Shown: positions 1,751 through 17,688 of the stretch, in pieces | How the letters are laid out: every line of letters begins with the position of its first letter | How positions within the stretch are numbered: the stretch's first letter is position 1 | DNA from: Burkholderia metallica | Lineage (GTDB): Bacteria; Pseudomonadota; Gammaproteobacteria; Burkholderiales; Burkholderiaceae | Assembly (NCBI RefSeq): GCF_902832845.1 | Contig: NZ_CADFDB010000015.1 | Location: forward strand, 1 to 64,000 | Reading direction: 5' to 3' | DNA: 64,000 nucleotides | Program-made: the position numbers and the translations under genes | The notes under the pieces: model-generated | Seen by the model: the letters and a program-made list of their open reading frames with translations, nothing else | The model's database searches: none | What the model was told of the DNA's origin: nothing

Positions 1751-1879
1751 CTATGCCGCCAGCTGGTGCTCGTAGTATGGCCGTTCGCGATCGGTGAGGA
1801 TCTCGCGCAGCTGAGCACGCCGGGATGGATCCGGCGCTAGCCAGGCGTCGACGTTCGAGGATTTAATTGGCACGATGCA
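1751..1879 (-). pseudogene. SRAP (HMCES/YedK) gene, severed C-terminal fragment
   Basis: The minus strand encodes 42 residues, CIVPIKSSNVDAWLAPD onward to ERPYYEHQLAA and a stop at 1751-1753. This is the C-terminus of SRAP-domain proteins, which crosslink to abasic sites in single-stranded DNA. The missing N-terminal 262 residues lie 15 kb away at 16,897-17,688, ending ...AAGHDRC. Joined at the shared cysteine codon the two parts give a complete protein of normal length. The similarity ends exactly at TGC (1877-1879), where the arsenic element begins. In the ancestral order this gene preceded imuA on the same strand. Confidence 0.85.
1874..1879 (+). other. Left attachment core (GATGCA) of the arsenic element
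   Basis: The six bases GATGCA at the left junction match GACGCA at 16,900-16,905 at five of six positions. Both include the SRAP cysteine codon where homology stops. This is consistent with a short crossover core used by tyrosine recombinases. The core assignment is inferred from the split gene. Confidence 0.6.
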
Positions 1880-1916
1880 CCTGTAGGAATACTTCATTTT
1901 GTTAGTAAGAAATGTG

Positions 1917-1945
1917 TTGACAGACATGGCACTCTGTACTGCTAT
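1917..1945 (+). promoter_or_regulatory. Putative promoter of the recombinase operon
   Basis: TTGACA at 1917-1922, a 17-base spacer and TGCTAT at 1940-1945 form a plausible sigma-70 promoter, 46 bases before the first gene of the operon and just inside the element's left end. Confidence 0.5.
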
Positions 1946-1991
1946 TCAATTTCTTTGAGAAGAGTAGCGGGATGGGGGTCCGGGGGAAGGG

Positions 1992-2291
1992 ATGCGGCCT
2001 GTGGATAACTCGGAACTAGAGCGGCTGCGCGGCCTCGCAGTGCTCGACGTGCTTCATCTGATGGCCGAACACACGAAGCTCGATCGGGACTTCGCTCCTG
2101 TGCGCGCCTTCAACACCCGACGCGTGCACGTGACTGCTGCCGGCGCCGACTGGGAGTTGTTGGTCGACGGCGCTCGCTTCTTCGACACGCGGGAACGCAA
2201 GGGCGGCGGCGGTGCCGTCGACCTCGTGATGCACCTATGGCGCGTGCCATTCAAGCAAGCGGTGAAGATGTTGCGCGAGGCCGGCGCGTGA
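1992..2291 (+). CDS. CHC2/primase-like small protein heading the recombinase operon
   Basis: The 99-aa product resembles the N-terminal segment of DUF3991/TOPRIM and CHC2-type primase proteins: RVHVTAAG, then RKGGGGAVDLVMHLW, then FKQAVKMLRE. The GGGGAxDLxMHL motif is the recognisable part. It has no cysteines, so it cannot form the zinc knuckle of true CHC2 domains. An AG-rich stretch (GGGGGAAGGG) precedes the ATG. Its stop overlaps the GTG of the first recombinase by 4 bases, so it belongs to the same operon. A DNA-binding role in recombination is inference. It could also be a captured primase fragment. Confidence 0.6.
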   Translation: MRPVDNSELERLRGLAVLDVLHLMAEHTKLDRDFAPVRAFNTRRVHVTAAGADWELLVDGARFFDTRERKGGGGAVDLVMHLWRVPFKQAVKMLREAGA

Positions 2292-3466
2292 GGTATGTAC
2301 GTGCCACCGAGGAGTTCGTCTTCGCCGGACGACCGCGGCCGGGATTCCCCTTGATCCTCGACGACTCGATGACGCCCGCGCAGCCGTTCCACGACTACCT
2401 GCTGTACCGGTTGCTCGAGCGTGGCAAGACGCTGGATCCCAAGACTTGGGAGGCGTATGGGCGCCGGCTCTGGGATTTCGCCCGATTTCTGCAGGCGAAC
2501 GATTGGAGCTGGAACGATCCATTCATGTCGGTTGGGCAGAGCGTCGTGCGTGTCTACCGCGACTGGCAGGCTCAAGACCTCAAACTGGACCCGGCAACCG
2601 TCAACGACCGGTTGAGGTTGGTTGCAGCGATGTACCAATGGGCACATGAGCGCGGGCGGATCGACCGCTTGCCCTTCGGCTGTTCCGATATCGCCGTGTA
2701 CGGCATTGAGCATGACCTGGCCCACGTCACTGGCGGTCGCAAGACGTTGAGCCGTCCGGCAGTGCTGCTCAACGAATGGGACAAGGAACCCGCGTTCCTG
2801 ACAGTAGACCAACTGAAGATCGCGCGGCAATCGATACGCTCTGCATCGCAACGGCTGCTGTTCGATCTGATGGCGCGGGTTGGTCTGCGCTCAGTCGAGG
2901 CACGCACCTTCCCTCTGTCGTACGTGTTTGATCCCAGTGCCCAAAAAGCTCTGAAGCCGGGCACCTTTATCGAAGTGCGCCTCGACCCGCGGGACATGGA
3001 GATCAAGTTGAACAAGGCCCGGGTCGTGCACGTGCCATACAGCCTGATGGAGGACATGTACGCATACACGACATACGAGCGCAACGGTCTCGTAGGAGCG
3101 GCGGAGCGTAAGGAACTGGTCCTGACGATCCACGGCCAGCGCTACAGCAAGGAAGCCGCGGTGAAGGTCTGCACGGATCTCAGCAACCGGGTCGGCTTCC
3201 GGGTACGCCCGCTCATGCTGCGTCACAGCTACGCGATTCATACCCTGCTGCTGTTGCGCAGCCGTCCCGAGATCAAGCTCGAGCCGCTCATGTACGTCCG
3301 CGATCGTCTCGGTCACGCGAGTGTCCAAACCACAATGGTGTACCTGCAGCAGATCGAGCGGCTGTTGGGCGCCGAGGCGCTGGCGATGATGGACGAGTTT
3401 GACAGGCTCTACGGGGTGAGCAAAGCCTTGGCCTCGGCGCCGCAGGTATCCACCGTTGATCCTTGA
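2288..3466 (+). CDS. Tyrosine recombinase 1 of the trio (TnpA-like)
   Basis: This 392-aa site-specific recombinase resembles Tn554 TnpA in size and position. Near the C-terminus are VGLRSVEA (arginine of box I), LMLRHSYA (box II), and RLGHASVQTTMVYLQ with the candidate nucleophilic tyrosine. The histidine normally found in the HxxR motif is leucine here. A longer frame begins at 2237 inside the preceding gene. The GTG at 2288 is chosen because it gives the same 4-base start/stop overlap (GTGA) seen at the other junctions of this operon. It probably acts with the next two recombinases on the element ends. Confidence 0.85.
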   Translation: MRYVRATEEFVFAGRPRPGFPLILDDSMTPAQPFHDYLLYRLLERGKTLDPKTWEAYGRRLWDFARFLQANDWSWNDPFMSVGQSVVRVYRDWQAQDLKLDPATVNDRLRLVAAMYQWAHERGRIDRLPFGCSDIAVYGIEHDLAHVTGGRKTLSRPAVLLNEWDKEPAFLTVDQLKIARQSIRSASQRLLFDLMARVGLRSVEARTFPLSYVFDPSAQKALKPGTFIEVRLDPRDMEIKLNKARVVHVPYSLMEDMYAYTTYERNGLVGAAERKELVLTIHGQRYSKEAAVKVCTDLSNRVGFRVRPLMLRHSYAIHTLLLLRSRPEIKLEPLMYVRDRLGHASVQTTMVYLQQIERLLGAEALAMMDEFDRLYGVSKALASAPQVSTVDP

Positions 3467-5382
3467 CACTGAGCCACGCCATGGGCAGAACGAAGAACTA
3501 CAACGTCAGCGAGAATCGCGCCGCGCCGGTCGGCGCCACATCGGCGTCACGCGAATCGCCGAGGGCCAGCGCCGACGACACCTGCATCGACATGGCGACG
3601 CTGTTGGGGCGAGAGGCCCGCTTCCCTCAGAGAATCAAGACGCTCGATCTTCGTGACTGGCTGGGACGTGGCATCGACGACTGGGTGTGCACATCCGGCT
3701 TCTGCCTCAAGGCGATGCTGCTCTCTGGCGCGCGCGCGACAGCCTCCGTCACCACGTACTTCGGGCAATTGCATTACCTGTTCGAGTACCTCACGGGCAG
3801 TTCGCAAACATCTGTGCCCCCGAGGCCGAAGCTCCCGTCGGACCTGTCTCCGCAACATGTCCAGCACTTCATCGGCTGGCTGCAGAAGCGGGCGCAGGCT
3901 GCAGATTGGAGACCGAGTTCGACGCGCAATACCTACCGGGCCGTCAAGACCGTACTCACCGAAATGTTCGTACAGGGCTTCATCGAGGGTGAGCCTTCGC
4001 GCTTTTTCCGGCACAGTGCGTTACCGTGGAGCTGCGAAGACAGTCTGCAAACTAGCCTGAGTGACGCGGAGCAAGAGCGCCTGGCCAAGGCTATCAAGTC
4101 CGATCTCGTTGATGTTCACCACGGCCGTCTGCCGCTGAAGCAAGGTGCCGTGCAGGGTCTCAGGCTATTGCTGGTGGCGCATCGCCAGGGGCTCAACCCG
4201 ACGCCCCTGCTCGAGATGTGCCGTGACGCGTTGGCGCCGGGATTCCTGCCTGGCACGATCCGCATGCGCACTGCCAAGCACCGCAGCAAAAAGGTCCGTT
4301 CCAGTATCGGCCGCGCCGCTCTTGAACGGCAAGCGTCAACGCAACCGAGCGAGCCCCCCGCCGAGCAAGACCTTTGTTTCGACCTCTCTGAAGGCGCTGT
4401 GCTGCAGCAAGCCATCGCGAGCACCCGCGAGCTGGTGTGTGAGGCACCGCCCGCCCTGAAGCAGCGAATCTGGTTGTATCGCGCTGAAGCAAGTGCTGGG
4501 TCGATAAAGAGGGGCAACATCACCTGTCTCGACAGCAGGTCCCTCCGTAGGGCGATCCAAGGCGTCATCCAACGCCACAACCTGCTGGGAGACGACGGCC
4601 TGCCGTTGCGCCTCAATCTTAGTCGCCTGCGCAAAAGCCGCTTTGACCGCGCACTGCGTACCGCCGACGGCGACATCGCGACCACTGCCAACCTGATGGG
4701 TAACACGCCGAGGGTCGCCGGGGCGAACTACCCGTCGATGAACGCGGCGCGCAAGGCCGAAGCGGCGAGCTTCATGAACGGCGACTACACTGCTTTGATG
4801 CGGACCGAAGGTCAGGCGCCGAGGGGGCCCGAGATCCAGCCAGTGCAAGTGCGGCCCTTCAGGCTCGGCAAAGACGGCGCAAGCGCCTTGCCGACTCCGA
4901 CGCCGGTCTCTGCGTGCTCGGATTCGATCAGCGGCGAGCACGCGCCGAATGACGGCCACAGCCACTGCGACCGCTACGTCATGTGCTTGTTCTGCTCGAG
5001 CTTTGCCATCGTCGGCACCGTGGACGAACTCTGGCGCCTGTTCAGCTTCCAGATGTTCGCGCAAGCCGAACTTGACTACCTTGACGAAGCCCTGGGTCCG
5101 GAGCGCACGGCCGACGGCCTGCTCGAGGACCTGCGTGATCGATACCGGGTGGCCATCCCCTATATCGACGATTTCACTCAGCGCCAGTTCGCGCGCAGCG
5201 GGGTCGCGCAGGCTCGTGCCAGGACCGCCTCAGGCCTGCACCCCTACTGGCAGCACCAGATGACCATGAGTAGCCGCGCACGCAGCCGTGTCTTAGCGCC
5301 GGAACCGCACGATGACGCATCGCAGAGCGTCGCTGTCGGACTGCAGGCTCGCAGAACGCGCCGGGCAGGACCCAGGGCATGA
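3463..5382 (+). CDS. Tyrosine recombinase 2 of the trio (TnpB-like)
   Basis: The 639-aa protein corresponds to TnpB of Tn554-type elements in length and position. The catalytic domain lies in the second half: HRQGLNPTPLLEM, then SRLRKSRFDRAL, then LMGNTPRVAGANYPS with the candidate tyrosine. Serine replaces the HxxR histidine and asparagine replaces the GH histidine, so it may be an architectural or half-active partner. A cysteine/histidine-rich tail (HCDRYVMCLFC) follows. The TTG at 3463 overlaps the preceding stop by 4 bases. An in-frame ATG at 3481 is the alternative start. Confidence 0.82.
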   Translation: MTLSHAMGRTKNYNVSENRAAPVGATSASRESPRASADDTCIDMATLLGREARFPQRIKTLDLRDWLGRGIDDWVCTSGFCLKAMLLSGARATASVTTYFGQLHYLFEYLTGSSQTSVPPRPKLPSDLSPQHVQHFIGWLQKRAQAADWRPSSTRNTYRAVKTVLTEMFVQGFIEGEPSRFFRHSALPWSCEDSLQTSLSDAEQERLAKAIKSDLVDVHHGRLPLKQGAVQGLRLLLVAHRQGLNPTPLLEMCRDALAPGFLPGTIRMRTAKHRSKKVRSSIGRAALERQASTQPSEPPAEQDLCFDLSEGAVLQQAIASTRELVCEAPPALKQRIWLYRAEASAGSIKRGNITCLDSRSLRRAIQGVIQRHNLLGDDGLPLRLNLSRLRKSRFDRALRTADGDIATTANLMGNTPRVAGANYPSMNAARKAEAASFMNGDYTALMRTEGQAPRGPEIQPVQVRPFRLGKDGASALPTPTPVSACSDSISGEHAPNDGHSHCDRYVMCLFCSSFAIVGTVDELWRLFSFQMFAQAELDYLDEALGPERTADGLLEDLRDRYRVAIPYIDDFTQRQFARSGVAQARARTASGLHPYWQHQMTMSSRARSRVLAPEPHDDASQSVAVGLQARRTRRAGPRA

Positions 5383-7331
5383 GTCACACCTCTGCCTTGG
5401 TCCTTGGTACGCCCCAAGAACACGCTGAAGACCTTGTCGTGCCGGTCGGCTCTATGCCGGCGCCACGTGCCCTGCGGGCCTTCGAGTTGCTGGCGGCTCA
5501 GCCGATCAGCTTGGTCGGCATCCCGCCGGCTGAGCGTGACGCCATCGTGGTGACCGCCGTGGCTGATGCCGCTGGCCACGAGCACCCAGTGAGCCGCTTC
5601 GGCGACCGCGTCTGGGACCTCGCGTCGGAGGTCGAGGCGAAGAACCGCAAGGGTTCGGCCTCGAAGATCGTCTGGCCGGACGATGTGCCGAACGCGCTGG
5701 TCGACGATGCCAAGGCGGCACTCTACTGCGCCCAGCGACGCGGCCCCCGTGGGCGGCAGTGGTCGGGTAGCTCTATTGCGGAGATTGGCCACAGGGCCGT
5801 CCAGGTGCTGAGGCACCTCGCACAATTGGGGCTGGGCGACTTCAGTCAGGTACGCGCGCTGCACCTGTCTGATCACATTACGGATCTGCGGCGCACGCTC
5901 AAGCCGATGTCCGTGCATAAGCGGCTGCAGATTATCGACCTCGTGTGGTCATTCCACATGGAAGTCCTGCACCCGTTGCCTGAGCACCCGTGGATGGGGC
6001 TTGCCCTCTGGGACGTATGTGGCGGTAACGAGGGCGACCGGGGGCCATCGGGCCGCACCGGCATGACCCCTGTGATTCCGCGCTCGGTGCAGCGCATACT
6101 CTTTGCTCACTGCGAAGCCAGCCTCGCTCAGGCAGAGGACCTGTTCTGGGCTCGAGACGCTGGTGAAGTCGGAGCCCCCAATCGCGCCGCGCTCACCGCG
6201 ATCCGCAATGCGGTCCTGTATCTGCTGCAGATCTCTTCGGGAATGCGAAACTCGGAGAGCACCGGCGTCACCAGCGGGTGTTGGCGTACCGAACAGCGCA
6301 ACGGCGTGACGTATCACTGGGTGCGCACGCGCGAGATCAAGACGACCGGCGGAGCCGAGGTCGACTTCCTGGTGCCCCCGGAGGCCATCAGCGCGCTCGA
6401 GATCCTGCAGCGCTACGCCGAACCGCTGCAGGCTCGGTTGGCCGACGAGGCACGATGGCTCGAAGACGTACTGGCACAGGGCCCCGATCTCACTGGTCAC
6501 CTGAGTAACGGCATGAAGATGGCTGAGGCCGCGCACCGCCTGAACCATGTGCGTGGAATCGGCCGGCATCTGGTTCTGGGCCTGAACGTGAAAGCCTCTG
6601 ACCACTTGGGAACCGGGTCGCGGGTCGAGGTGCTGAGCTCAACTTCCTGCGCCTACCAATTGAAGCAACTGGCTGTGGCTGCCGGGACGGAGTGGGACCT
6701 GGCCAACCATCAGTGCCGTCGCACCTTCGCCTACAACGTCGCAAACTCGCGTCTGGGGCGAATGGGCCTCGTCTTCCTGAAGTGGCAACTCAAACATGCG
6801 TCGATGTCGTGGACGCAGCTTTACGCCGCCAGCCCCTACCAGGATCACGCGCTATATCGTGAGTTCGAGGAGGAGATGTTCGAGGCGCGGCTGGGGCTGC
6901 TGGAAGGTTGGGCACATCCCGATGCACTGCTTAGCGGGGGCGCCGGCAAGAAGATCATGCAGACGCGGGCTCGTGCCGCACGAGACCTCAAGCAGCTCCT
7001 GAGACAAACGGCCGAGTCGGTCGAACTGCGCAGCACCGGACACGCGTGGTGCATCAGTGGCACGCACGGCTGTCACGGCCAAGGGGTGTACGATCCGTCA
7101 ATGTGCGGTGGTTGCTCGCAGGCCATCATCGACCAGGGACAAGCATCTGCGTGGCAAATGATCCACCTGGACAACCTGCGGCTAGCGGCGATCACCGATT
7201 GCGGCCCCGTCGTGGCCGACAAGGCGCGGCGGGCGGTCGAGCGCTCGAAGCAGGTGCTGCACAATCTCGGCTGCGCGCTGCCGACCGATGACCAGGCCCA
7301 GGCGTATACGGCCGCGCGGGAGGGCGCATGA
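5379..7331 (+). CDS. Tyrosine recombinase 3 of the trio
   Basis: The 650-aa recombinase has the most complete catalytic set of the three: SSGMRNSE (arginine), NHQCRRTFAY (HxxR) and LKHASMSWTQLYAA (histidine and tyrosine). The C-terminus has a cysteine/histidine cluster (WCISGTHGCHGQG and CGGC) that could bind zinc, as in TnpB-type partners. Its ATG overlaps the previous stop (ATGA) and its own stop overlaps the next ATG. Tn554 has only two recombinases, so this third large one places the module nearer recombinase-in-trio elements. Exact roles in integration and excision are not known. Confidence 0.85.
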   Translation: MSHTSALVLGTPQEHAEDLVVPVGSMPAPRALRAFELLAAQPISLVGIPPAERDAIVVTAVADAAGHEHPVSRFGDRVWDLASEVEAKNRKGSASKIVWPDDVPNALVDDAKAALYCAQRRGPRGRQWSGSSIAEIGHRAVQVLRHLAQLGLGDFSQVRALHLSDHITDLRRTLKPMSVHKRLQIIDLVWSFHMEVLHPLPEHPWMGLALWDVCGGNEGDRGPSGRTGMTPVIPRSVQRILFAHCEASLAQAEDLFWARDAGEVGAPNRAALTAIRNAVLYLLQISSGMRNSESTGVTSGCWRTEQRNGVTYHWVRTREIKTTGGAEVDFLVPPEAISALEILQRYAEPLQARLADEARWLEDVLAQGPDLTGHLSNGMKMAEAAHRLNHVRGIGRHLVLGLNVKASDHLGTGSRVEVLSSTSCAYQLKQLAVAAGTEWDLANHQCRRTFAYNVANSRLGRMGLVFLKWQLKHASMSWTQLYAASPYQDHALYREFEEEMFEARLGLLEGWAHPDALLSGGAGKKIMQTRARAARDLKQLLRQTAESVELRSTGHAWCISGTHGCHGQGVYDPSMCGGCSQAIIDQGQASAWQMIHLDNLRLAAITDCGPVVADKARRAVERSKQVLHNLGCALPTDDQAQAYTAAREGA

Positions 7332-7765
7332 GCACCCGTGCAGGCACCACGCCCGCCGAGCCCCAGACCGAGTCGGCGCCGCGTCGCCGGAGCAGAGGGA
7401 AGACGCGGGAGGAACTGCAACTGGCGATGCTGCGGGTCAAGAACAAGGGGCTGAAGCTGAGCATCTCCGCAGTTGCCACCGAGGCCGGCGTGAGCGCCGG
7501 CCTCATCCACAACACGTATCCCGACATCGCCGAAGAGATCCGCGCTCAAGTCGGTCGGGGCACTCGGCAGCAGCGCGACGCCAAGGTTGCGGAGGTCAAG
7601 GAAGTAAGAGGGCGGTTGAAGGCCCTGCGCATGGAGCGAGACGCTGCACTGGCCGACGTCGCGAGGCTGGCCTCAATCAATGAAACGCTGCGTCAGGAGG
7701 TCGCAATGTTGCGGGCGGCAGCTTCTGGAAAGATGGTCGTTTTGCCCCCTCAGATGGACGTTTAA
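7328..7765 (+). CDS. TnpC-like small DNA-binding protein
   Basis: The 145-aa product has a basic N-terminus, a TetR-like helix-turn-helix (ISAVATEAGVSAGLIHNTYPDI, about residues 50-70) and a long C-terminal coiled coil (about residues 85-130). This matches TnpC/DUF6262-type proteins that accompany Tn554-family recombinases and influence the efficiency and orientation of transposition. The start overlaps the recombinase 3 stop by 4 bases (ATGA), so it is the last gene of the five-gene operon. It might be annotated as a TetR regulator, but it lacks a ligand domain. Confidence 0.75.
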   Translation: MSTRAGTTPAEPQTESAPRRRSRGKTREELQLAMLRVKNKGLKLSISAVATEAGVSAGLIHNTYPDIAEEIRAQVGRGTRQQRDAKVAEVKEVRGRLKALRMERDAALADVARLASINETLRQEVAMLRAAASGKMVVLPPQMDV

Positions 7766-7904
7766 GCCGTTTGCTTGGATCCCTTTGGTCTCGCCGCATT
7801 TTACCGGTGAAAGTCGGTCTAGCTGAGGCGCAGTCCCGATGAGATGGTTCGGACCAAGGTACGTCGCTCATGTTGCGTCGATCTGTCGGTGTTCCTGTCA
7901 AAGC

Positions 7905-8333
7905 CTACAGAACTCGCAACATCGAAGCGGCCGACCCCGGACATACGCCCTGGAATTGGCTCGACGCCAACACCAAGGGCGGTACGTCGTCGCGCGCAAC
8001 GCGCACGAAGCCCTGACGGGTGAAATAGTTCTCCGCGGTCGTGGTGAGGAGCACTAGCGACCGGACTTGTAGCGAATGACACGCGGCGACTAGCTGCGAC
8101 ACGATACGCTGCCCCACACCAGAACCGCGGGCATGTTCCGCCACCGCAATGGAGCGCAAAAGCGCAGCGTCGCGGTAATGCTCAATGCCGCCGCACCCGC
8201 ACATCGTCGAACCTTCCATTGCGACCACAAAATCCTGCAAATGATCGCTCACACCGACGACAGGCAGACCGCATTGATGCAGCAGGGTTTCAATCGACGC
8301 CAGGTCATCGACAGTGGCGGGACGGATCTCCAT
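7905..8333 (-). CDS. arsN2: GNAT acetyltransferase, ArsN2-like
   Basis: The 142-aa GNAT-fold protein begins MEIRPATVDDLASIETLLHQ and carries the acetyl-CoA pyrophosphate-binding loop in EHARGSGVGQRIV. ArsN-type acetyltransferases occur in ars operons. ArsN1 acetylates the organoarsenical antibiotic arsinothricin, while the substrate of ArsN2 types is not settled. It is the last gene of the ars operon, 22 bases after arsH. The symbol rests on operon context and overall resemblance. Confidence 0.72.
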   Translation of the reverse strand: MEIRPATVDDLASIETLLHQCGLPVVGVSDHLQDFVVAMEGSTMCGCGGIEHYRDAALLRSIAVAEHARGSGVGQRIVSQLVAACHSLQVRSLVLLTTTAENYFTRQGFVRVARDDVPPLVLASSQFQGVCPGSAASMLRVL

Positions 8334-8355
8334 TTGTCACTCCTTGGACGGGGTT

Positions 8356-9078
8356 CTAGATGCTCCGCTGGTTCACGCGCTTCGACAGTTCCTCTGCGCT
8401 TTCCTTTCGCTCGCTGTACCGATCGACCAGATAGGGACCGATGTCCCGGGTCAGCAAAGTGAACTTCACCAACTCTTCCATGACGTCGACAACACGATCG
8501 TAATAGGACGACGGCTTCATTCGGCCTGCTTCGTCGAATTCAGCGAACGCCTTGGCCACCGACGACTGGTTCGGGATGGTCAGCATGCGCATCCAGCGCC
8601 CCAGCACACGCATCTGGTTCACCGCGTTGAACGATTGCGAGCCGCCGCTCACCTGCATCACCGCAAGCGTTTTGCCCTGCGTCGGCCGAACCGCACCGAC
8701 CGACAGCGGAATCCAGTCGATCTGTGACTTCATGATCCCGGTCATCGCGCCGTGTCGTTCCGGCGAGCACCAGACCATCCCTTCCGACCACATTACCAGC
8801 TCGCGCAGTTCGACCACCTTCGGATGACTCTCGGGCGCGTCATCGGGCAGCGGCAGGCCGCTCGGATTGAACACGCGCACCTCGGCGCCCATCGCCGTCA
8901 GCAGGCGCTCGGCTTCCTCGACCAGCAGGCGGCTGAACGAACGCTCACGCAGCGAACCGTAAAGCAGCAGGAGCCGCGGCGGATGAGTGGAAGGCGCCGC
9001 AGGCCGCAGTTCAGCGGCGTCCGGCACGCGAAAATGTGTTGCGTCGAGCTGCGACAGGTCTTTCAGTTGCTCAGACAC
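8356..9078 (-). CDS. arsH: ArsH, NADPH-dependent FMN reductase / organoarsenical oxidase
   Basis: ArsH is a flavodoxin-like NADPH:FMN oxidoreductase that oxidises trivalent methylated and aromatic arsenicals to less toxic pentavalent forms. The family signatures are [15 protein letters not shown] (FMN phosphate loop) and [20 protein letters not shown]. An ATG exists at 9093, but the GTG at 9078 is preferred: GGAGG lies about 7 bases upstream of it and the GTG overlaps the arsC stop by 8 bases. The resulting 240 aa is the usual length. Confidence 0.92.
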
Positions 9079-9493
9079 GCTTGCCCTCCGCATTGATCAC
9101 GACCTCGCCGTCCTCCTTGGTGAACGATCCTTTCTGCGGGTTCGGCAGAATGTCCAGAACAGCTTCCGACGGCCGGCAAAGCTTCGTGCCGATCGGCGTG
9201 ACCACGATGGGCCGGTTCATCAGAATCGGATGCTGCCCGATGAGATCGAGCAACTGCTCATCGGTCCACTTCGGATCATCAAGGCCGAGTTCCGCATAAG
9301 GCGTGCCCTTCTCACGCAGTACCTCGCGTACGGTCAGGCCCGCGTCAGCCAGCAGCTTGACTAGCGTTTCTCGCGACGGCGGCGTCTTGAGGTACTCGAT
9401 AATGATAGGCTCCTCGCCGCTGTTACGGATCAGGGCCAGCGTGTTGCGCGACGTGCCGCAGTTGGGGTTGTGGTAGATGGTGATATCAGTCAT
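9071..9493 (-). CDS. arsC: Arsenate reductase, glutaredoxin-coupled type
   Basis: The 140-aa protein has the ArsC/Spx thioredoxin-fold signature [16 protein letters not shown] with catalytic Cys12, and a PILMNRPIV segment. It reduces arsenate to arsenite using glutathione and glutaredoxin. The arsenite is then exported by Acr3, encoded upstream, or could be re-oxidised by AioBA. It is in an operon with acr3 (22-base gap) and arsH (overlap). Two arsenate reductases of the unrelated phosphatase type lie upstream in the same operon. Confidence 0.93.
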
Positions 9494-9514
9494 GTCGAGA
9501 TTTCTCTGTTCGTA

Positions 9515-10588
9515 TCAAGCGCGGCACTCGTACCAGCCCTTCGACTGGTTCACGATGCGCACCACCAGCAGCATGACCGGCACTTCGATCAGCACGCCGA
9601 CGACAGTGGCCAGCGCCGCACCAGAGTGGAAACCGAACAGACTGATCGCGGCCGCGACGGCCAGTTCGAAGAAGTTCGACGCGCCGATCAGTGCCGACGG
9701 GCACGCGATGTTGTGCTTCTCTCCGACAGCGCGGTTGAGCCAGTAGGCCAGCGCCGAATTGAAGAACACCTGGATTAGGATCGGCACCGCGAGCAGCGCG
9801 ATCACCAGCGGTTGTTTCAGGATCGCTTCGCCTTGGAACGCGAACAGCAGCACGAGCGTCGCGAGCAGCGCGGCGATCGACCACGGGCCGATCTTCGCCA
9901 TTGCAGCATCGAATGCCGCCTGCCCCTTCGCGAGCAGCACCTTGCGCCAGATCTGCGCGAGGATCACCGGGATGACGATGTAGAGCACCACCGACGTGAG
10001 CAGCGTCGCCCACGGCACCGTGATTGCGGACATGCCGAGCAGCAACCCGACCAGCGGTGCGAACGCGATCACCATGATGCTGTCATTCAGCGCGACCTGC
10101 GACAACGTGAACAGCGGATCGCCGCCCGTCAGCCGGCTCCACACGAACACCATCGCCGTGCAAGGCGCAGCGGCCAGCAGGATCAGGCCCGCGATGTAGC
10201 TGTCGAGCTGGTCGGCCGGCAGCATCGGCGCGAACAGATGGCGGATAAACAGCCAGCCGAGAAACGCCATCGAGAACGGCTTGACGAGCCAGTTCACGAT
10301 GAGCGTGACGCCGATGCCTTTGACGTGCTGACGCACTTCATGCAACGCGCCGAAGTCGACCTTGACCAGCATCGGGATGATCATCACCCAGATCAACAAC
10401 CCGACCGGGAGGTTGACCTGCGCGTACTCCATCCGGCCGATTTGCTGGAACAGGCCGGGCAGCACCTGGCCGAGCGCGATGCCGGCGACGATACACAGCG
10501 CAACCCAGACGGTCAGATAGCGTTCGAAGAAATTGATGGCAGGCTTTGCGACGGCCTTGCCCGGTGGGGCGACGTTGGATGTATTCAT
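9515..10588 (-). CDS. acr3: Acr3 arsenite efflux permease
   Basis: This 357-aa inner-membrane protein has about ten hydrophobic segments. It contains the conserved LAAAPCTAMVFVWS segment, whose cysteine is needed for arsenite transport in characterised Acr3 proteins, and CPSALIGASNFFELAVA near the C-terminus. It exports As(III) using the proton-motive force. It lies between phosphatase-type and glutaredoxin-type arsC genes on the same strand. The 357-aa length fits Acr3, not ArsB (about 430 aa). Confidence 0.93.
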   Translation of the reverse strand: MNTSNVAPPGKAVAKPAINFFERYLTVWVALCIVAGIALGQVLPGLFQQIGRMEYAQVNLPVGLLIWVMIIPMLVKVDFGALHEVRQHVKGIGVTLIVNWLVKPFSMAFLGWLFIRHLFAPMLPADQLDSYIAGLILLAAAPCTAMVFVWSRLTGGDPLFTLSQVALNDSIMVIAFAPLVGLLLGMSAITVPWATLLTSVVLYIVIPVILAQIWRKVLLAKGQAAFDAAMAKIGPWSIAALLATLVLLFAFQGEAILKQPLVIALLAVPILIQVFFNSALAYWLNRAVGEKHNIACPSALIGASNFFELAVAAAISLFGFHSGAALATVVGVLIEVPVMLLVVRIVNQSKGWYECRA

Positions 10589-10652
10589 TGGGCGATGTTC
10601 AGTCTTAAGGTCGTTGGCAGTCGCTCGTTTCTGCAGACCGCTATGCGAATGA

Positions 10653-11147
10653 TTAGTTTTGCGAGATCTCGATCAGCGCCGTCTGGAGTCCGGCATTGCT
10701 CATGCGATCGAGCGGCAGCGCGAGCAACTGCAGCATGCGATAGCCGATTGCCTGGCGCGTGAGTTCAAAGGCGAGGCGCTTGCCTTCGTCCCCGCCCGTT
10801 GCGTTCGACGGATCGGCATAGCCCCAGTGCACGTTGACGGGGCTGCCGGGCCAGTACGGGCACGTCTCGGCCGCTGCGCTGTCGCATACCGTGATGACGA
10901 CGCGCATTTCCGGCGCGCCGTCGCCGACGAACTCGTCCCAGCTCTTGCTGCGATATCCGTCGACGTCGACACCGGCGTTCGTCAACGCTTCCAGCGCGAA
11001 CGGATTGAGGCGACCGCTCGGCGCGCTGCCGGCGCTGTACGCGCGCACGTCCTTGCCAAGCTTCGCGGCCCAATGATTCAGCATCCCTTCCGACAGCACG
11101 CTTCGCGCCGAATTGTGGGTGCAGAGAATCAGTACATTCGTGGTCAT
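10653..11147 (-). CDS. arsC: Arsenate reductase, low-molecular-weight phosphatase type (copy 2)
   Basis: The 164-aa protein has a P-loop LILCTHNSARSVLSEG (CX5R, Cys9) and ends its core with CPYWPGSPVNVHWGYADPS, as in phosphatase-derived arsenate reductases. It is paralogous to the next upstream gene, with the same layout of P-loop, GYRSKSWDEF and WPG...HWG, so a tandem duplication or paired acquisition is likely. It sits 64 bases upstream of acr3. Electron donor (thioredoxin or mycothiol type) cannot be told. Confidence 0.88.
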   Translation of the reverse strand: MTTNVLILCTHNSARSVLSEGMLNHWAAKLGKDVRAYSAGSAPSGRLNPFALEALTNAGVDVDGYRSKSWDEFVGDGAPEMRVVITVCDSAAAETCPYWPGSPVNVHWGYADPSNATGGDEGKRLAFELTRQAIGYRMLQLLALPLDRMSNAGLQTALIEISQN

Positions 11148-11163
11148 GTCAGAGCATCCGGAT

Positions 11164-11658
11164 TTACTGTTGGCCGATTTCGCGCACTGACTTCTGCAGC
11201 GCGACGTTGTCGAGTTCGGTGATAGGCAATGACAGCAGCAGGTCGATCCGACGCTTCAACGTCAGCGCGGCGTCGTGCATGGCCTGTTGCTTCTGTTCGT
11301 CAGAGCCCTCGACTTCGGCCGGATCGGGCACGCCCCAATGCGCGATGATCGGTTGACCGGGCCAGATGGGGCAGACTTCGCCAGCGGCCTTGTCGCACAC
11401 GGTGAACACAAAATCGAGCGTTGGCGCGCCAGGTGCGGCGAACTCGTCCCAGTTCTTGCTCCGATACCCGTCGGTTGGCAAATGCCAGCGCGCGAGCTCG
11501 CGCAGTGCGAACGGATTCACCTCGCCTTTCGGATGACTGCCGGCGGAGAAGGCGACGAAGCGCCCATTGCCAAGCTGGTTCATCAGGCCTTCGGACAGGA
11601 TCGATCGGGCGGAATTGCCGGTGCAGATGAACAGCACGTTGTAGGGCTTGTCGCTCAT
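11164..11658 (-). CDS. arsC: Arsenate reductase, low-molecular-weight phosphatase type (copy 1)
   Basis: The 164-aa protein has the P-loop LFICTGNSARSILSEG (Cys11 to Arg) and the shared motifs GYRSKNWDEF and CPIWPGQPIIAHWGVPDP. It is separated by only 16 bases from its paralogue and by 9 bases from arsI, so all are one transcript. Phosphatase-type ArsC reduces arsenate through a cysteine relay. Candidate resolving cysteines lie in VCDKAAGEVCP. With the glutaredoxin type downstream, the operon has three arsenate reductases from two unrelated families. Confidence 0.88.
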   Translation of the reverse strand: MSDKPYNVLFICTGNSARSILSEGLMNQLGNGRFVAFSAGSHPKGEVNPFALRELARWHLPTDGYRSKNWDEFAAPGAPTLDFVFTVCDKAAGEVCPIWPGQPIIAHWGVPDPAEVEGSDEQKQQAMHDAALTLKRRIDLLLSLPITELDNVALQKSVREIGQQ

Positions 11659-11667
11659 GGATGGACC

Positions 11668-12147
11668 TCAGCAGCAGGATGATTTCACCGGCACGCCGAT
11701 CGGCTTGCCGCGTGCAGGGGAACAGCAAGCAGAAGCTTCGGCATTCGATTCAGCCGACTGCGAGTTGCGCGATTCACCGAAGGTCGGAACGTCTCCGAGC
11801 GTCTGATACGTCTCCCAAGCGATGCCTTGCGGGTCGACGGCCCAGTACTTGTCGGAGCGCGCGTAACAGCACGCCGTGCCGATTTGCTCGTCGACGGGCA
11901 CCGCGGCGCCGCTCAGGCGTGCGTGCATTTCGGCAAGCTCGGCCTCGTTCTCGACCTGAACGCCGAGATGATCGAGCCCCGGCGCGGCGCCGCGCTGCGA
12001 GATCGCGAAATTGACGCGTGGATCGTCGAGCATCCACTTGGCGTAATCGACCTTTTCAACGGTGGGCTGGCTCGCGAATAGCGCCGAATAAAACCGGATG
12101 CTGGCCGTCAGATCTTCGACGGAGAGGTGGATGTGCAGACGTTTCAC
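11668..12147 (-). CDS. arsI: ArsI/CadI-type dioxygenase (C-As lyase)
   Basis: The 159-aa vicinal-oxygen-chelate protein has candidate metal ligands in KRLHIHL, GLDHLGV and AWETYQ, and a conserved cysteine pair in GTACCYARSDKYW that binds trivalent arsenic in ArsI. ArsI uses Fe(II) and O2 to split the C-As bond of methylarsenite and related organoarsenicals. The C-terminus adds more thiols (SACCSP and a terminal SSCC). The GTG at 12,147 is chosen because AAAGGAGA precedes it and its GTGA overlaps the arsR stop. The frame continues upstream only as the shadow of arsR. CadI-like metal binding is the alternative reading. Confidence 0.87.
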   Translation of the reverse strand: MKRLHIHLSVEDLTASIRFYSALFASQPTVEKVDYAKWMLDDPRVNFAISQRGAAPGLDHLGVQVENEAELAEMHARLSGAAVPVDEQIGTACCYARSDKYWAVDPQGIAWETYQTLGDVPTFGESRNSQSAESNAEASACCSPARGKPIGVPVKSSCC

Positions 12148-12485
12148 GACGCGTTCTCCTTTGAGGGCTTGCAGCCACCGGCCCCGATGGGTGTGCAGGG
12201 ATTGCCCCCGCAGCAGTTTTCGGTCAGAAAGCCCAGCAGATCGTTCATCGCCGCGTAGTTGGCCGAATAGATCATGAAGCGGCCACGCTGCTCGACCGTG
12301 ACGAGATTCGCGTAGGTGAGCTCTTTCATATGAAAGGACAACGACGAGGGAGCGATGCCCAGCCGTTCGGCAATCTGACCGGCAGGCAGCCCCCCGGGGC
12401 CCGCTTCCACGAGTAGTCGAAAGACGGCCAGCCGGGATTCCTGAGCCAAGGCGCCGAGGGCGCGGACGACAGAGTTCGTTTCCAT
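12144..12485 (-). CDS. arsR: ArsR-family arsenic-responsive repressor
   Basis: The 113-aa winged-helix repressor has its recognition helix around APSSLSFHMKELTYANLV. The arsenite sensor is a C-terminal cysteine cluster: Cys91-Cys92 and Cys97 in ENCCGGNPC, plus Cys105. This is the C-terminal site type, not the CxC in the DNA-binding helix of plasmid R773 ArsR. It is first in the ars operon, overlaps arsI by 4 bases and is followed by all the other ars genes. It probably binds the inverted repeat just upstream of its own start. Confidence 0.93.
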   Translation of the reverse strand: METNSVVRALGALAQESRLAVFRLLVEAGPGGLPAGQIAERLGIAPSSLSFHMKELTYANLVTVEQRGRFMIYSANYAAMNDLLGFLTENCCGGNPCTPIGAGGCKPSKENAS

Positions 12486-12486
12486 G

Positions 12487-12512
12487 TTTCAATCATAGTT
12501 GAAATATTGAAC
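12487..12512. promoter_or_regulatory. Candidate ArsR operator
   Basis: TTTCAAT at 12,487-12,493 and its inverted match ATTGAA at 12,507-12,512, with a further TTGAAA half between them, lie directly before arsR. Alternating TTCAA/TTGAA half-sites are usual for ArsR-type operators. Autoregulation is inferred. Confidence 0.55.
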
Positions 12513-12629
12513 ATTGCACAGCCTCTCCGCGCACCGATCGAACGACGCCGCCATCCGGCAACAAAAAGCGGCGCGACAGCGGTTGAGCCGCCATCGCGCC
12601 GCGTTGCATCCGAAATCAACCAAGTGCAC

Positions 12630-15119
12630 TCAGGTTGCGTCGATACGTCGGCTCTTGAAGCTCACGGTTTCCTTGAAATCCTGAACCGACCCCACCCGGC
12701 GCAGGTTCGCCCACGTGCCCTTGTAGTACGGCACGACGTTCCGGTCCGTCCATGGGGTCGTCACGTTGCCCATGATCCCGTTGAAATGCCCGAACTGCAT
12801 GAACGTCTGGCCATGCTTGATCGCGGGCTCGAGGTAGGCCATCGCGTAGGTCGAACCATAATCGTTATAGACCTCGACGACGTCACCGGACGTGATGCCG
12901 AGCGAACGCGCGTCGTCCGGGTTGAGCTCGAGAAAAGCCATCGGCACGCGTTCGCGCACGAACTCGTTGTACTGGTCGTGATAAAGGGTCTGCCAGACTT
13001 CGTTGACGCGGCCGTTGTTGATCCAGAATTTGTACTTCGCCTTCTGATCCGCCACCGGCTTCGGCAGGCCAGTCCACTTGGCCGGCTTGAATTGCGCTTT
13101 GCCATCGGCCGTGTCGAACTTGCCGTCCATGTAGAGCATTTCGGTTCCGATCAGCTTGCCGCCTTCGAATGACTTGGCGGGCAACTGGACACCGTTGTTG
13201 CCCATCGCGCGAAGCCGCGCGTAGGTCACCAGATTGCCGGTCTTGCCGCCCTGACTGTCGATTGGTCCGACGCCGGCTTGGCCCGCCTGCCGGAAGCCGT
13301 CATTGAATGCGTCTTCTTCGGTTTTCCAGTCGAAGCCGGCAAACCGGGCGGCCATGTCGCTCTTCCCTTCGGCCTCGTACATCCGCTTGAGCGTGTTCGC
13401 GATCGCGGCTGCAATTAGGCAGTCCGGCATCGCGGAGCCGGGCGGGTCCATGAAGCGCTCGGAGAGTCGCATGCGTCGCTCGCCGTTCATTGACGTCAGG
13501 TTCATCTCGCCGGGGTGTGCCGCCGGCAACATCAGATGTGCCGCTTCGGCAAGCTTGGTCGGATAGAGGTTGATGTTCGCGAAGAACAGCCCGCCCTTGT
13601 TCTTCACGGCGTCATAGGCGACGTCGACGAGCTGCGCAGTCGAAGCGCCACGCTCGCGCGACATTGCTTCGCGCACAATGCCGGCACGGTGCAAGATGAC
13701 CGCGCGATGTTCTTCCGCGTTCAATGTCGTCTGGAATGGATTCGCGCCCCAGGCCGTGTACATCATGCCCTTGCCGTGAATGATCTCCTGGTCGACGTAG
13801 ATCTTCATGTTGCCGGGATACGGAGGCCGTGTGTAGCCTTCCTGGTGTCCGCCCATCCGGACGACGCCGGTGCCGCGCCGACCGACGTTGTGCGTCGCGA
13901 GCACGACGTCGACCAACGCAGATTGGATCAGGTAGTTGTCGTTACCCCAGATGATCCCCTTTTCATAGGCGTGCATGGTCCTCGGGCGGTGCCCCGATGC
14001 CTTGGGTTTGTACGCCCATTCGGCCGCCTGCTTCAGACGCTCGACCGGCACACCGGTAATACGACTGGTTTCATCCAGCGACAAGCGGTTCGTCTTCAAG
14101 GCATCGTCAAAGGCGCTGGTGTATTCCGCAACGAAGGCCTTGTCGTGCCATCCCTGATCTACCACGTAGGTCAGCAAGCCGTCGAACAGCGCGATATCCG
14201 TACCGGGCTCAATGTCCAGATGCAAGACGTTCTGTTTGCCGGCGACCTTCTCGGCGATCGCAACCGTGGTGGTGCGTCGCGGGTCGACGAAGATGATCTT
14301 GGCGGCTGCGACACTCTCGCCGGGGAAGCGCTGCTTGCGCTTGTCGATGGTCTGCCCCTGCAGGTTCGGCAGCCAGTGGGCAAGGAAGTAGTTCGTCTGC
14401 GTTTCATATGAGTTGCAGCCGATCGCCATGATGACGTCGGCCAGCTCGGCGTCCTCATAGCTGTTGTTCAACTCGCCGATGCCCATTTCACGTGTGGCAT
14501 GGCACTCCGAGTTGTAGGCCGGCCGGTTGTGGATGCGCACGAGCGGCGTCTTGAGCGCGGTGAACATCAGCTTGCCCGTTCCCCATGTGTTCTCGAAGCC
14601 GCCACCAGCACCACCGTGGTCGAAGCAATCGAAAGCGAGCACCGACGGGCCGTCGCGATCGAGGATCTTCTTGGTCAGGCCGGCATACAGCGCGAGCGCG
14701 TCTTCCCAGCTCGTATCCATCCATTGATCGGACAGATATATGCGAGGGCTGCGCAAGCGCTCTTTGGCGACGCCACCATCGGGGTTGTACATGACCTTCG
14801 CAAGCTGTCCGCCGCGTGTCGACGACAAGCCACGGTTGACGCTGCAGGTCTTGTCCGGCACGACCATGATGTTGTACCGGCGACCGTCCTTGTCGGTGAT
14901 CGTGTTTTGCATCGCCGGCGTCATGACGATCGACAACGGCGGCAACTGGGTGCGGAAATCCAGCCCCAATGCGTTCTGGTTCGGTGCTCGTCCGCCTTCG
15001 ACGTTTTCGGGCCATTTGAACACGTGGTATCCGCATCCGACGATGCAGAAGTGGCAGGTCAGATTCGTGCGCTGGGCCTGAACGGGCGGCAGTGCCACCC
15101 GATCCTTGTTGGTAGCCAT
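12630..15119 (-). CDS. aioA: Arsenite oxidase large molybdopterin subunit
   Basis: AioA oxidises arsenite to arsenate at a molybdenum bis-pyranopterin centre in the periplasm. The 829-aa length matches the family. The 3Fe-4S ligand motif is CHFCIVGC (Cys22, Cys25, Cys29). Other typical segments are [20 protein letters not shown] and [20 protein letters not shown] near the active-site funnel, and [20 protein letters not shown] near the C-terminus. It has no export signal of its own and would be carried by AioB, which has one. The ATG at 15,119 has GAGGGAA upstream and lies 11 bases after aioB. No cytochrome c, AioX/S/R regulator or cofactor gene accompanies it here. Confidence 0.96.
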
Positions 15120-15130
15120 GATCGTTCCCT

Positions 15131-15637
15131 CTACAGCAGGTTGGCTTGGCGGCCGTAAATCAACCCATCCACTGCAATCGCGCGTACCGTGCCATTGCTG
15201 GCGTTGTAGTCGAGCACGATCGAGGGAAGCTTTTCCGTTGCCTGTCCCGAAATCATCTGACCGGCTTTTTCAGCATCGAACTTGCTGAAGTGGCAAGGGC
15301 AATTGAATTCGCGTGTGGTGCCATCGTATGCAACCGGACAGCCCATGTGGGTGCACAACACGCTGAACGCGACGATGTCTTTATCGGGGCCGACGCCACC
15401 GGGGACGGGGGTCCGCATCTTGACTACCGCACATGGCGATGACGCATCCGGAAAGGTAAACGCGAGGGGTACGTTTGGTCGCAATTGCCCGGCGCGTGCG
15501 ATCACTTTCGGGGTATAGGGCAGCGTCGTTCGTCCGGCGTCGACCTGAGCGGCCTGTGCCGATGGAGCCCCAGCCACGGTTACGCCGGCGGCTGCCCCGC
15601 CAGTGAGTTTGAGAAATTGCCTGCGGTTAAGACCCAT
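15131..15637 (-). CDS. aioB: Arsenite oxidase small Rieske subunit
   Basis: This 168-aa Rieske protein has a twin-arginine signal ([11 protein letters not shown]) and hydrophobic region, then the 2Fe-2S motifs CTHMGC (Cys95, His97) and CPCH (Cys113, His116), with Cys100 and Cys115 able to form the bracing disulfide. It takes electrons from AioA and passes them to a periplasmic carrier. The ATG at 15,637 is preferred over the in-frame ATG at 15,649 because GGAGGA lies just upstream of it, inside the longer version. It is the first gene of aioBA. Confidence 0.95.
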
Positions 15638-15995
15638 GGTCTCCTCCATTTCGACATTTGATAGGCGGATTGCTTGATCGCATGTACGAACTGGATTCCA
15701 ATCGAAATGGTGGCGGACGCAACTTCTTGTATGAAGTGCGGCACCCAGATTTTTATATTTCTTGAATTATTGATTCGGGTGTAGAGCAAACCTTTCAGAA
15801 TTTCAAGGTGCACGGGCGAGCAAAAGCCATGCCGCCGGGTTTACGTGGACATCGCACGAGCGGGCGTCTCGGTTTTCTGCACCCCTCATGATCCACGCCG
15901 AACGGTGTCACTGGCTTCGTGCCCCGTCCGCCAGTTGAATTTTTGTTCGTGGATGCAATACTTCAAAGATTCGCCACGAAGCGTCACACTGCACC
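15638..15995. other. Intergenic region upstream of aioBA
   Basis: About 360 bases between aioB and the divergent DUF1488 gene. It must hold the aioBA promoter. A stretch around 15,750-15,775 is locally AT-rich. I see no convincing sigma-54 site of the type described for AioR-controlled aio operons, and no coding region I would support. Confidence 0.5.
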
Positions 15996-16262
15996 ATGCC
16001 TGCCTCGATTACCTGCCTTACACGGCCTCTCGTCTGCGACGATTCAGGCTTGCGCTTTTCTGCATATGGTCATGGCTGGGGATACGTCGCAGTCAGACTT
16101 CCGGCAGCCGTCGTGTGCGACAAGCTCGGCGCCGGCGCAACGACTCCTGACCATTTGCTCGCGACATTCGAACTCCACCAGGAGCAAATCGCACGTGCTA
16201 TCAGTCGACATCAATTGCCGAACTATGGCGAGGCCATTCAACTCGACGCGTCGGACTTCTAG
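15996..16262 (+). CDS. DUF1488-like small protein
   Basis: The 88-aa product has the DUF1488 pattern: DDSGLRFSAYGHG near the start, DHLLATFELHQEQIARAI in the middle and a terminal LDASDF. Function is unknown; these are small soluble proteins common in Burkholderia. The exact start is uncertain: the ATG at 15,996 lacks a clear ribosome-binding site. It lies between aioBA and the right end of the element, pointing away from aioBA. Confidence 0.55.
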   Translation: MPASITCLTRPLVCDDSGLRFSAYGHGWGYVAVRLPAAVVCDKLGAGATTPDHLLATFELHQEQIARAISRHQLPNYGEAIQLDASDF

Positions 16263-16529
16263 GGCGATGTGGCACCAAGGCTTGGTCTGACTGCGGATCA
16301 TTTACGCGGTTGCCCAAAGACTACGTACGACGAATCCCTACGCAGGTGGTCCAGAACGAATAGTCGAGGCGAATTCCTCGGACAGTACGGATATCCTGGA
16401 AACGCGCATGGCAAGAATCTCATCCTTTCCTTGACCCTCCCATGGTTGGAAGGTGAACACTGCAATTAGCGGCATTGGTCCGGTGGCACCGTGCGCAAAC
16501 CAAGCTGCTTTAATGCGGGAGCAACTGCT

Positions 16530-16724
16530 ATGTCGTGTTCGCTGCGGGACGACGTGCTGGCCGTCTTCGCCCGGTCGTGCGAAGAAGGAGAGTTCGAAGT
16601 CGCGGAACATCTGCTTTGCGCAATCGAAGTCATTGCACTGCAGTCACTCGATTTCGAGCAGCTTGATGTCGCATACGCATTTTTGGGACGAAGCCTGACG
16701 AACGGCCAGACAGGAAGTCATTGA
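16530..16724 (+). CDS. Small unknown acidic protein
   Basis: The 64-aa product starts MSCSLRDDVLAVFARSCEEG and continues EFEVAEHLLCAIEVIA. It resembles small Burkholderia proteins of similar start (MSxSLRDxVLAVFxRACEEG) with no assigned function. The longer frame from 16,491 is less natural because the conserved-looking part begins at this ATG. It is the last gene before the right end of the arsenic element. Confidence 0.55.
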   Translation: MSCSLRDDVLAVFARSCEEGEFEVAEHLLCAIEVIALQSLDFEQLDVAYAFLGRSLTNGQTGSH

Positions 16725-16896
16725 ATCAAATCCATATTTTTATAGGGGCAAACCGGAGACCCTTGTCGCGCCTAGGCCAGGCGATGCCGGCAAAGCGCAC
16801 ACAAATCACGGCGACGCCTGCAGCGAGCCGCAAACTGTTCGTTGTGGAGTTGCACACTAAATCAACGACTTACGATGATTTAATAGTTAGTAGTAT

Positions 16897-17688
16897 TCAG
16901 ACGCATCGGTCGTGTCCGGCGGCCGCCACCTCCGGCGGTGGGTCGTCGGTGATCGCCGCGAACGACCATAGGTCGTCGCCTCCCGGGATCTCGGTGCGCG
17001 TCCAGAGGCAGGCGACCTGCATGTGCTGCGGTGGTGTCGGATCGAAGCGCAGCACGACGTTCTGGCCGTCGCGCTTCACGTTTTCGAAAAAAGTGTCGAC
17101 GAGCAAGAGGCCATGCGTGAAGCCGAAAACCTTCCGCCAGGCGGTACTGAGCGAATCGGCCCTGGCGTTATACGAACCGTCCTTGGCACGCTCGTCCGCT
17201 TCGGTCCAGCCAGGTATGCGGCATCGATACCGCATCGGCACGACCATGCGCTTGCCGTCGAGTTCGATCAGCACGGGCGCATACCAACCGGGGAAGATCC
17301 GCGAATCACGCTCCTGCAGGTCCTGCCGGCGAAGGTCGTCGAGCCCGCGCGTTGCCGCATCGATCTTGTTCGTGGCGATCCGGACGTCCTCGCTGGCCTT
17401 CTTCGTGATCTTCACGGCGAGCTTCTTCTCGGCCGCGGCGAGCCGCGTGCGCTGCTCGAACAGATCCGTCTCCAGCTTTCGAGTTCGCTGGCTTCGGTAC
17501 GCGGCGATCGCAACAGTGATTTCTTCGTCGATACCGTCAAACGCGGCGTCGACCGCTTTCGGGATCTTGATGTCGTTCCCAGCCGCGCGCGCGAAGAACA
17601 GGCGGCGGAATGTGTCAATGTCCATGTCGGCGCCGTAGCGGCGGACGTACTCGCGATAGTTCGCCTGGATCTTGGCCGAATAGCACAT
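16897..17688 (-). pseudogene. SRAP (HMCES/YedK) gene, N-terminal part severed by the arsenic element
   Basis: The protein begins MCYSAKI with the SRAP nucleophile Cys2. It has the coiled-coil insert of the long betaproteobacterial type (about residues 75-120), the YNARADSL segment, and ends DDPPPEVAAAGHDRC. One foreign codon and a TGA follow. SRAP proteins form a thiazolidine crosslink with abasic sites in single-stranded DNA and shield them. The last 42 residues lie at 1751-1879. Cys2 and the NAR asparagine survive, but loss of the C-terminus, which contains part of the core fold, makes activity unlikely. Confidence 0.88.
16900..16905 (+). other. Right attachment core (GACGCA) of the arsenic element
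   Basis: GACGCA contains the SRAP cysteine codon (minus strand TGC) and pairs with GATGCA at the left junction. On its left the element sequence begins with AGTATTCA. Confidence 0.6.

Follow-up and report, generated by a model that had tools for sequence, protein, structure and literature searches.

We describe a 64,000-nucleotide (nt) stretch of Burkholderia metallica DNA (contig NZ_CADFDB010000015.1; hereafter the window) in which an SRAP gene lies in two parts on the same strand with an element between them. The N-terminal part is an open frame of 263 amino acids (aa) at positions 16897-17688 (minus strand; Pfam SRAP, E = 4.7e-11), and the C-terminal part (...RCIVPIK...) runs to a stop at 1751. 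At one end the element carries the genes for GinA, GinB, GinC and GinD in overlapping frames, downstream of a 99-aa open reading frame (ORF), and beyond them arsenic genes (Table 1). We put at about 0.9 the probability that this is a site-specific element of the SE/GInt superfamily (GInts being ginABCD genomic islands), with ars and arsenite-oxidase cargo, in the SRAP gene of a plasmid like pBCEN1232. The observations behind this reading are exact borders, a natural empty site, reuse of the target, gene order, profile matches of GinA, GinB and GinC, and the pattern of the att repeats.

The two SRAP parts were compared with natural intact relatives separately, without joining them. The natural empty site is plasmid pBCEN1232 of Burkholderia cenocepacia (NZ_CP011920.1, record L002), which has one intact SRAP of 303 aa. 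The left flank of the window matches this plasmid over 1,878 nt and the right flank over 5,091 nt, each with 1 mismatch (99.95% and 99.98% identity), and both meet at L002 positions 4878/4884, within the intact gene. Because near-identical flanks abut inside one intact SRAP gene, chance is excluded, and the proposal of a preliminary description, made from the window alone, that an element splits a single SRAP gene is confirmed. A further 24 kb of the window (22001-46000) is 100% identical to pBCEN1232; over the regions compared, the window thus comes close to being this plasmid with a 15,026-bp insertion. The 10-nt site is the same in pBCEN1232 and the J2315 plasmid, and that of B. pyrrocinia departs from it at the last base only, so the empty state is probably ancestral. 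A second SRAP match in the host genome lies on another contig.

The empty site makes both borders exact, as the preliminary description had held, and corrects the size of the element, whose ends are 10-nt imperfect direct repeats. These repeats, attL and attR, differ by 3 mismatches and lie over the Arg-Cys-Ile/Val codons after Gly258-His-Asp of the SRAP GHDRC motif, so that the split is not confined to a single cysteine codon, as first thought. Nor is the GAYGCA core of that description invariant, GATACA and GAAACA being seen in relatives. A universal GATG core (GATGCA, GATGATC) was considered and dropped because an SRAP insertion at Asn174 in another lineage shares ACAACG instead. At the right end of the element, the last 150 nt have 52% GC compared with 62% for the element, which is lower, yet not AT-rich; the right ends of SRAP- and umuC-targeting elements (12 rows) have a related terminus, with ATTCA at the end in most.

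Table 1. Features of the inserted element and its surroundings in the window
Feature	Position	Strand	Remark
imuB, truncated next to IS3 end	33..1040	-	
imuA, intact	961..1677	-	
LexA-like box CTGTACGTTTATACAG before imuA	1698..1713	+	motif scan
SRAP C-terminal part (Cys-Ile-Val-Pro... to stop)	1751..1879	-	matching C-part adjoins ginA in L003, L004, L006, L007, L049
attL GATGCACCTG	1874-1883	.	identical to pBCEN1232 empty site
Integrated element between repeats	1884..16899	.	15,026 bp repeat to repeat
Left end, GAATAC + TTGTTAGTAA motifs; 42% GC in first 100 nt	1884..1991	.	
Small gene before ginA, 99 aa	1992..2291	+	predicted fold resembles DnaG zinc-binding domain
ginA/intA, tyrosine recombinase	2288..3466	+	start by homology; mechanical ORF start 2237
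ginB/tfp-like, tyrosine-recombinase fold; first Arg and both His replaced, Tyr kept	3463..5382	+	
ginC/intB-like large tyrosine recombinase, R-HxxR-H-Y, His/Cys-rich C-terminus	5379..7331	+	
ginD/srap-like small accessory gene	7328..7765	+	
GNAT acetyltransferase	7905..8333	-	like-placed gene in relatives annotated arsN2
arsH-like FMN reductase	8356..9093	-	
arsC, glutaredoxin type	9071..9493	-	
acr3/arsB arsenite efflux	9515..10588	-	
Two arsC arsenate reductase genes	10653-11147, 11164-11658	-	
arsI/cadI-like gene	11668..12147	-	placed by comparison with relatives
arsR	12144..12485	-	
aioA-like molybdopterin subunit	12630..15119	-	
aioB-like Rieske subunit	15131..15649	-	
Right end, 53% GC vs 62% for element; terminus GTTAGTAGTATTCA	16263..16899	.	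related to right ends of umuC-targeting elements
attR GACGCATCGG	16900-16909	.	read as donor-type footprint
SRAP N-terminal part	16900..17688	-	TGA after codon 263 comes from element end

The same site is used by elements with other cargo. With the intact SRAP gene (912 nt) as query, 86 plasmid records were matched and 60 listed, of which ten (H151-H160) are weak or partial. Among the matches listed, 39 of 60 rows hold an uninterrupted gene, matched over 911 nt or more of its 912, and 11 of 60 end exactly at nt 789, the breakpoint of the window (11 of the 50 records with this SRAP). The breaks at nt 789 occur in B. ambifaria pBMC401, B. vietnamiensis, B. aenigmatica and eight B. multivorans records (two from one strain). 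The pBMC401 element is 11.2 kb long with CBASS cargo, a CBASS cyclase among its genes (L003 7982-11130), and the B. vietnamiensis and B. aenigmatica islands, of 49,353 bp each, carry copper, arsenic and other metal genes.

Island identity was compared over the gin module, the last 999 nt and the flanks. The gin module (about 5.7 kb) is 100% identical among B. multivorans, B. vietnamiensis, B. aenigmatica and B. pseudomultivorans, and the last 999 nt are identical between the B. multivorans and B. vietnamiensis islands. The left host flanks of these four species' islands are 84-96% identical, and the SRAP N-terminal parts agree at 82% (B. multivorans and B. vietnamiensis) and 97% (B. vietnamiensis and B. 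aenigmatica). Both B. vietnamiensis and B. aenigmatica have attL GATACACCTG and attR GATGCATCGG, the latter being the empty-site allele of B. multivorans and B. pseudomultivorans; because this attR equals the empty B. multivorans allele, the pattern points to a multivorans-type donor. The nearest of 9 intact alleles to the window attR is likewise GATGCATCGG, one base away.

The recombinase genes show a consistent catalytic pattern. In gene 2 (ginB), the first Arg and the first catalytic His are replaced in 15 of 15 aligned sequences and the Tyr is kept, the second His being kept in 8 and replaced in 7, the window included; gene 3 (ginC) has the complete R-HxxR-H-Y set in 13 of 13, and an alignment of 16 GinC sequences shows an invariant HxWC...C...CxxC stretch. 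The catalytic status of GinA was judged from its integrase-family match, not residue by residue. NCBIfam gave generic recombinase or regulator matches only for the gin proteins. The small gene before ginA yields a confident structural model (pLDDT 92.9), whose best PDB match is the DnaG primase zinc-binding domain 1d0q (probability 1.00, TM 0.56, E 4.3e-3), with zero PDB matches at E 0.001; conserved zinc-ligand cysteines are lacking. Related ORFs occur in 59 of 105 loci having more than 250 nt before ginA, but none was detected at the umuC loci of Pseudomonas. The small gene belongs to no family in Pfam or NCBIfam scans; its one PHROGs match is weak (E 0.018) and of unknown function.

Under the mechanism that we propose, the element would circularize with about 10 nt of its last site in the joint, and this circle would recombine with the HDRC codons of the target, so that attL would keep recipient sequence and attR would take donor sequence. 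GinA and GinC would be the likely catalytic recombinases, GinB and GinD their non-catalytic partners, and the small primase-zinc-domain-like protein might act as an extra factor.

Which class the element belongs to has two serious answers. That it is a canonical GInt in a new target is a possibility just under an even chance. The available parts of the GInt paper (PMC5385486) describe a four-gene module at one end, variable cargo, a short, AT-rich and poorly conserved 3' end and imperfect repeats of 10-11 nt; the window module, with three integrase-type proteins and a small protein at one end and with 10-nt imperfect repeats, fits this description, its right end being lower in GC without being AT-rich, and the divergence between lineages is within the published range. 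However, the same source says that the protein lacking the first Arg is GinC, whereas here it is gene 2 that lacks this residue and gene 3 that is complete, as in SEs; the comparison is with the paper's naming and published description, not with GInt sequence. The targets that it names include ssb and the genes for an ABC transporter and a ribonucleotide reductase, and the SSB family did not turn up in Pfam scans of upstream pieces.

The other answer, a divergent, betaproteobacterial SE, we hold as tentatively, at somewhat less than one chance in two. It is favored by the order intA-tfp-intB-srap, by the catalytic pattern (an integrase-family first protein, a non-catalytic second, a large catalytic third and a small fourth), by site specificity and by the att repeats, with the fingerprint in attL and the footprint in attR. 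According to the accessible parts of the SE paper, attL of SEs keeps the target and attR carries the footprint; correspondingly, the window attL equals the empty site, and in B. vietnamiensis and B. aenigmatica the attR is the allele of a different species. Profile comparison paired GinA with IntA (99.4%), GinB with Tfp (98.6%, E 1.2e-15) and GinC with IntB (100%, E 2.6e-41), and the cross-pairs are low (GinB-IntB 0.7%, GinC-Tfp 0.4%; control GinD-IntA 0.3%). These figures have to be set against a weak GinD-Srap pairing (58.7%) and a mutual GinB-GinC match of 95.6%, because of which the family pairing rests on the contrast in scores, and against the nature of the references, which come from quartets of one plasmid in Vibrio casei (Tfp, IntB and Srap) and another in Citrobacter (IntB), called SEs from gene order and unpublished as such. 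Further, the SE paper, in the parts available, did not find Tfp and Srap homologs in Betaproteobacteria or blast similarity between SE and GInt genes. The att differences of the window fall at positions 3-9, over 7 nt, as opposed to 6 bp, and the host, the extra primase-zinc-domain-like gene and the SRAP target differ as well. The branch to the SE-type GinC relatives of Vibrio and Citrobacter is very long, and GinC is 22.8-29.9% identical to four Vibrio rows among the matches listed, not all of them confirmed SEs.

Two further systems are similar in part. The ILE in rulB of pWW0, as described in the portions of PMC4542609 available, shares a homologous module, insertion in a plasmid SOS gene and variable cargo; the same source reports experimental integration into rulB, a umuC homolog, and names pGRT1 of P. 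putida DOT-T1E as the closest to the ILE. A 133-kb DOT-T1E plasmid (H50), presumed to be pGRT1, matches the window GinB at 32%. The ILE differs in its target, umuC/rulB instead of SRAP, and in that the small front gene was not found in the Pseudomonas relatives. Tn554 inserts in radC, with a GATGTA core. It has two tyrosine recombinases and TnpC and leaves a 6-bp footprint (PMC10214605), but has TnpA, TnpB and TnpC only, without a counterpart of GinB, the further recombinase-fold protein of the window, and belongs to Staphylococcus and Enterococcus.

It is very unlikely that the ars block arrived by an ars transposon or by homologous exchange, with the gin genes as bystanders. Plasmid pRF23 of B. 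ubonensis does carry a related ars/aio block (89.8% identity over 6.9 kb), and the annotation of the 40 kb shown has no gin gene; however, the borders in the window coincide exactly with those of gin elements bearing other cargo, and for this reason the arsenic genes are read as cargo and not as what defines the element. The same ars content with other borders, which the preliminary description had named as a counter-case, is seen in a weak form, as this related block. That the two parts of SRAP are native genes in their own right, as their annotation as separate coding sequences in inserted plasmids might suggest, deserves practically no credence in view of the exact empty site and the 39 full-length records, and intact relatives with the fragments as separate genes were looked for and not seen among the 60 records listed.

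Related modules occur in other lineages and other genes. A class-wide sample gave 2 matches in 369 at the strict limit, including the genome from which the window comes, and 25 of 249 matched in the genus of a Pseudomonas genome. Among 79 genome-collection loci, ginA was detected in 70, and 63 of these have 450 nt or more before it (16 of 79 dropped). The insertion follows UmuC residues 1-34 in 29 of these 63 and lies in umuC near residue 14 in 3, in SRAP in 3, in an AAA_22 gene in 5 and elsewhere in 23, so that umuC or SRAP is the target in 35. A distant lineage splits a long SRAP at the Asn of YNAR (Asn174): in L068 the N-terminal part has TYN at the border and the C-terminal part, beyond the other end of the element, begins with NNAR. 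Where neither umuC nor SRAP was matched, Pfam scans of the longest stop-to-stop upstream pieces (62, 81, 52 and 71 in the sets scanned) gave no single alternative target but AAA_22 (5 members), DUF4350 (5), ChlI (2), AMP-binding (2) and many singletons; because adjoining ginA does not prove a target, such loci were kept as 'other' unless a shared border was seen.

These observations can be joined in a broader proposal, which we offer tentatively and would sooner doubt than accept: that SE, GInt and ILE form one superfamily, in which separate lineages have each come, time and again, to insert where the catalytic motifs of SOS proteins are encoded on plasmids, namely SRAP His259 (window clade), SRAP Asn174 (distant clade), short SRAP, and the SNND and NNFYVSC motifs of umuC, with an intact umuC behind ginD in some perhaps replacing the broken gene.

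Several points weigh against this proposal and against the reading of the window itself. No SOS gene or recognised shared target is seen in 23 of the 63 genome-collection loci, in 11 of 22 Pseudomonas loci or in 13 of 24 same-family loci, and umuC or SRAP is the target in only 6 of these 22 and 6 of these 24; the sets overlap and hold near-copies, and 4 of 26 Pseudomonas and 4 of 28 family loci were dropped for want of ginA or of 450 nt upstream. The residue-14 UmuC matches are weak (E 0.008-0.04), and the site rests on a DNA reading. His259 was assigned by its motif, which aligned poorly with short SRAPs. The GinC tree, in which starred branches part the Asn174-SRAP clade from the window clade and the latter shares a starred set with those of umuC-34 and umuC-14 and with other or unknown-site rows, is of a quick kind, with 112 sequences, 62 rows of 'other' site and several long branches. 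As to the window, none of the 9 intact alleles has its attR GACGCATCGG, a single ancestral insertion that later spread through recombination of the flanks may still account for individual pairs, and its mobility is inferred from sequence, the circular form, excision and transfer being unobserved.

Insertion into rulB (umuC) is already known, and the window element sits within the SE/GInt/ILE group. In the literature searched, including the available parts of PMC5537653 and PMC11064530 and with most subscription papers outside its coverage, no report of SRAP as an insertion site was found; within that literature, the repeated use of SRAP as a target and a donor footprint that can be read from sequence appear to be new. 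The window and pBCEN1232 show clearly, in natural plasmids, a site before and after insertion of a mobile element whose class is poorly understood, and illustrate a route by which metal-resistance and phage-defence cargo could spread among Burkholderia plasmids. The case also ties together SE, GInt and ILE, so far described apart, through gene order, borders and frequent use of SOS genes, and with the donor-footprint rule the direction of transfer can be read from sequence. If the broader proposal is right, SOS genes would serve these elements as a common, conserved target, through which those that have no transfer genes could be carried along by conjugative plasmids.

Other associations with umuC were also observed. 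On Vibrio casei plasmid 1 (L167, NZ_AP018682.1) an SE-type quartet, probably an SE in umuC, adjoins UmuC residues 7-432, which are encoded on the other strand, while umuD lies beyond the cargo; in Pseudomonas L223 a gin module of another clade adjoins UmuC residues 7-103, also on the opposite strand. A full-length umuC lies close behind ginD in 12 loci with umuC-targeting elements and is open in 11 of them (L046 has stops): L085 (6819-8114), L087 (12295-13590), L088 (6255-7550), L045, L046, L089, L090, L091, L098, L099, L118 and L121. Going by their record titles, these loci are mostly betaproteobacterial, L098 being filed as a Planctomycetota metagenome-assembled genome. The host umuC of L085, L087 and L088 is broken in two, with a part on either side of the element, and it is possible that the element-borne copy replaces the broken gene. 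As for other targets, one gin clade (L055-L058, L060, L141) starts within an AAA_22-type gene at a common CCGATGATCAGG. In Pseudomonas L212, L214, L216, L218 and L222 gin elements start at the end of a DUF4350-type gene with similar ATG-ATC-like sequences; these are possibly canonical GInts. A search of one Pseudomonas genome for the DUF4350 gene, aimed at such GInts, found nothing.

The insertion also has likely consequences for the host genes. Because the element end places a TGA directly behind the core, the SRAP protein would stop after 263 residues and lose 40 C-terminal residues. In an alignment to two short SRAPs, Cys2, Asn174 (YNAR) and Glu202 match conserved positions; a sequence search of PDB with the intact SRAP gave no match. 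For YedK, the available parts of PMC9436759 describe roles of Cys2, Glu105, His160 and residue 75. The truncated protein, which would retain the equivalents of Cys2, Asn174, Glu202 and His259, is probably inactive without its last 40 residues. Before imuA lies CTGTACGTTTATACAG, which we take to be a LexA box; the motif has 2 matches in the window against 0.42 expected, and at least 2 were reached in 8 of 100 shuffles. Since imuA is complete and has this LexA-like box, its SOS control may survive through a promoter of its own. In pBCEN1232 an IS3 gene occupies the place of imuB and the annotation has no imuB, and in the J2315 plasmid SRAP and imuA are separated by the reverse-transcriptase gene of a group II intron (L155 2382-3914).

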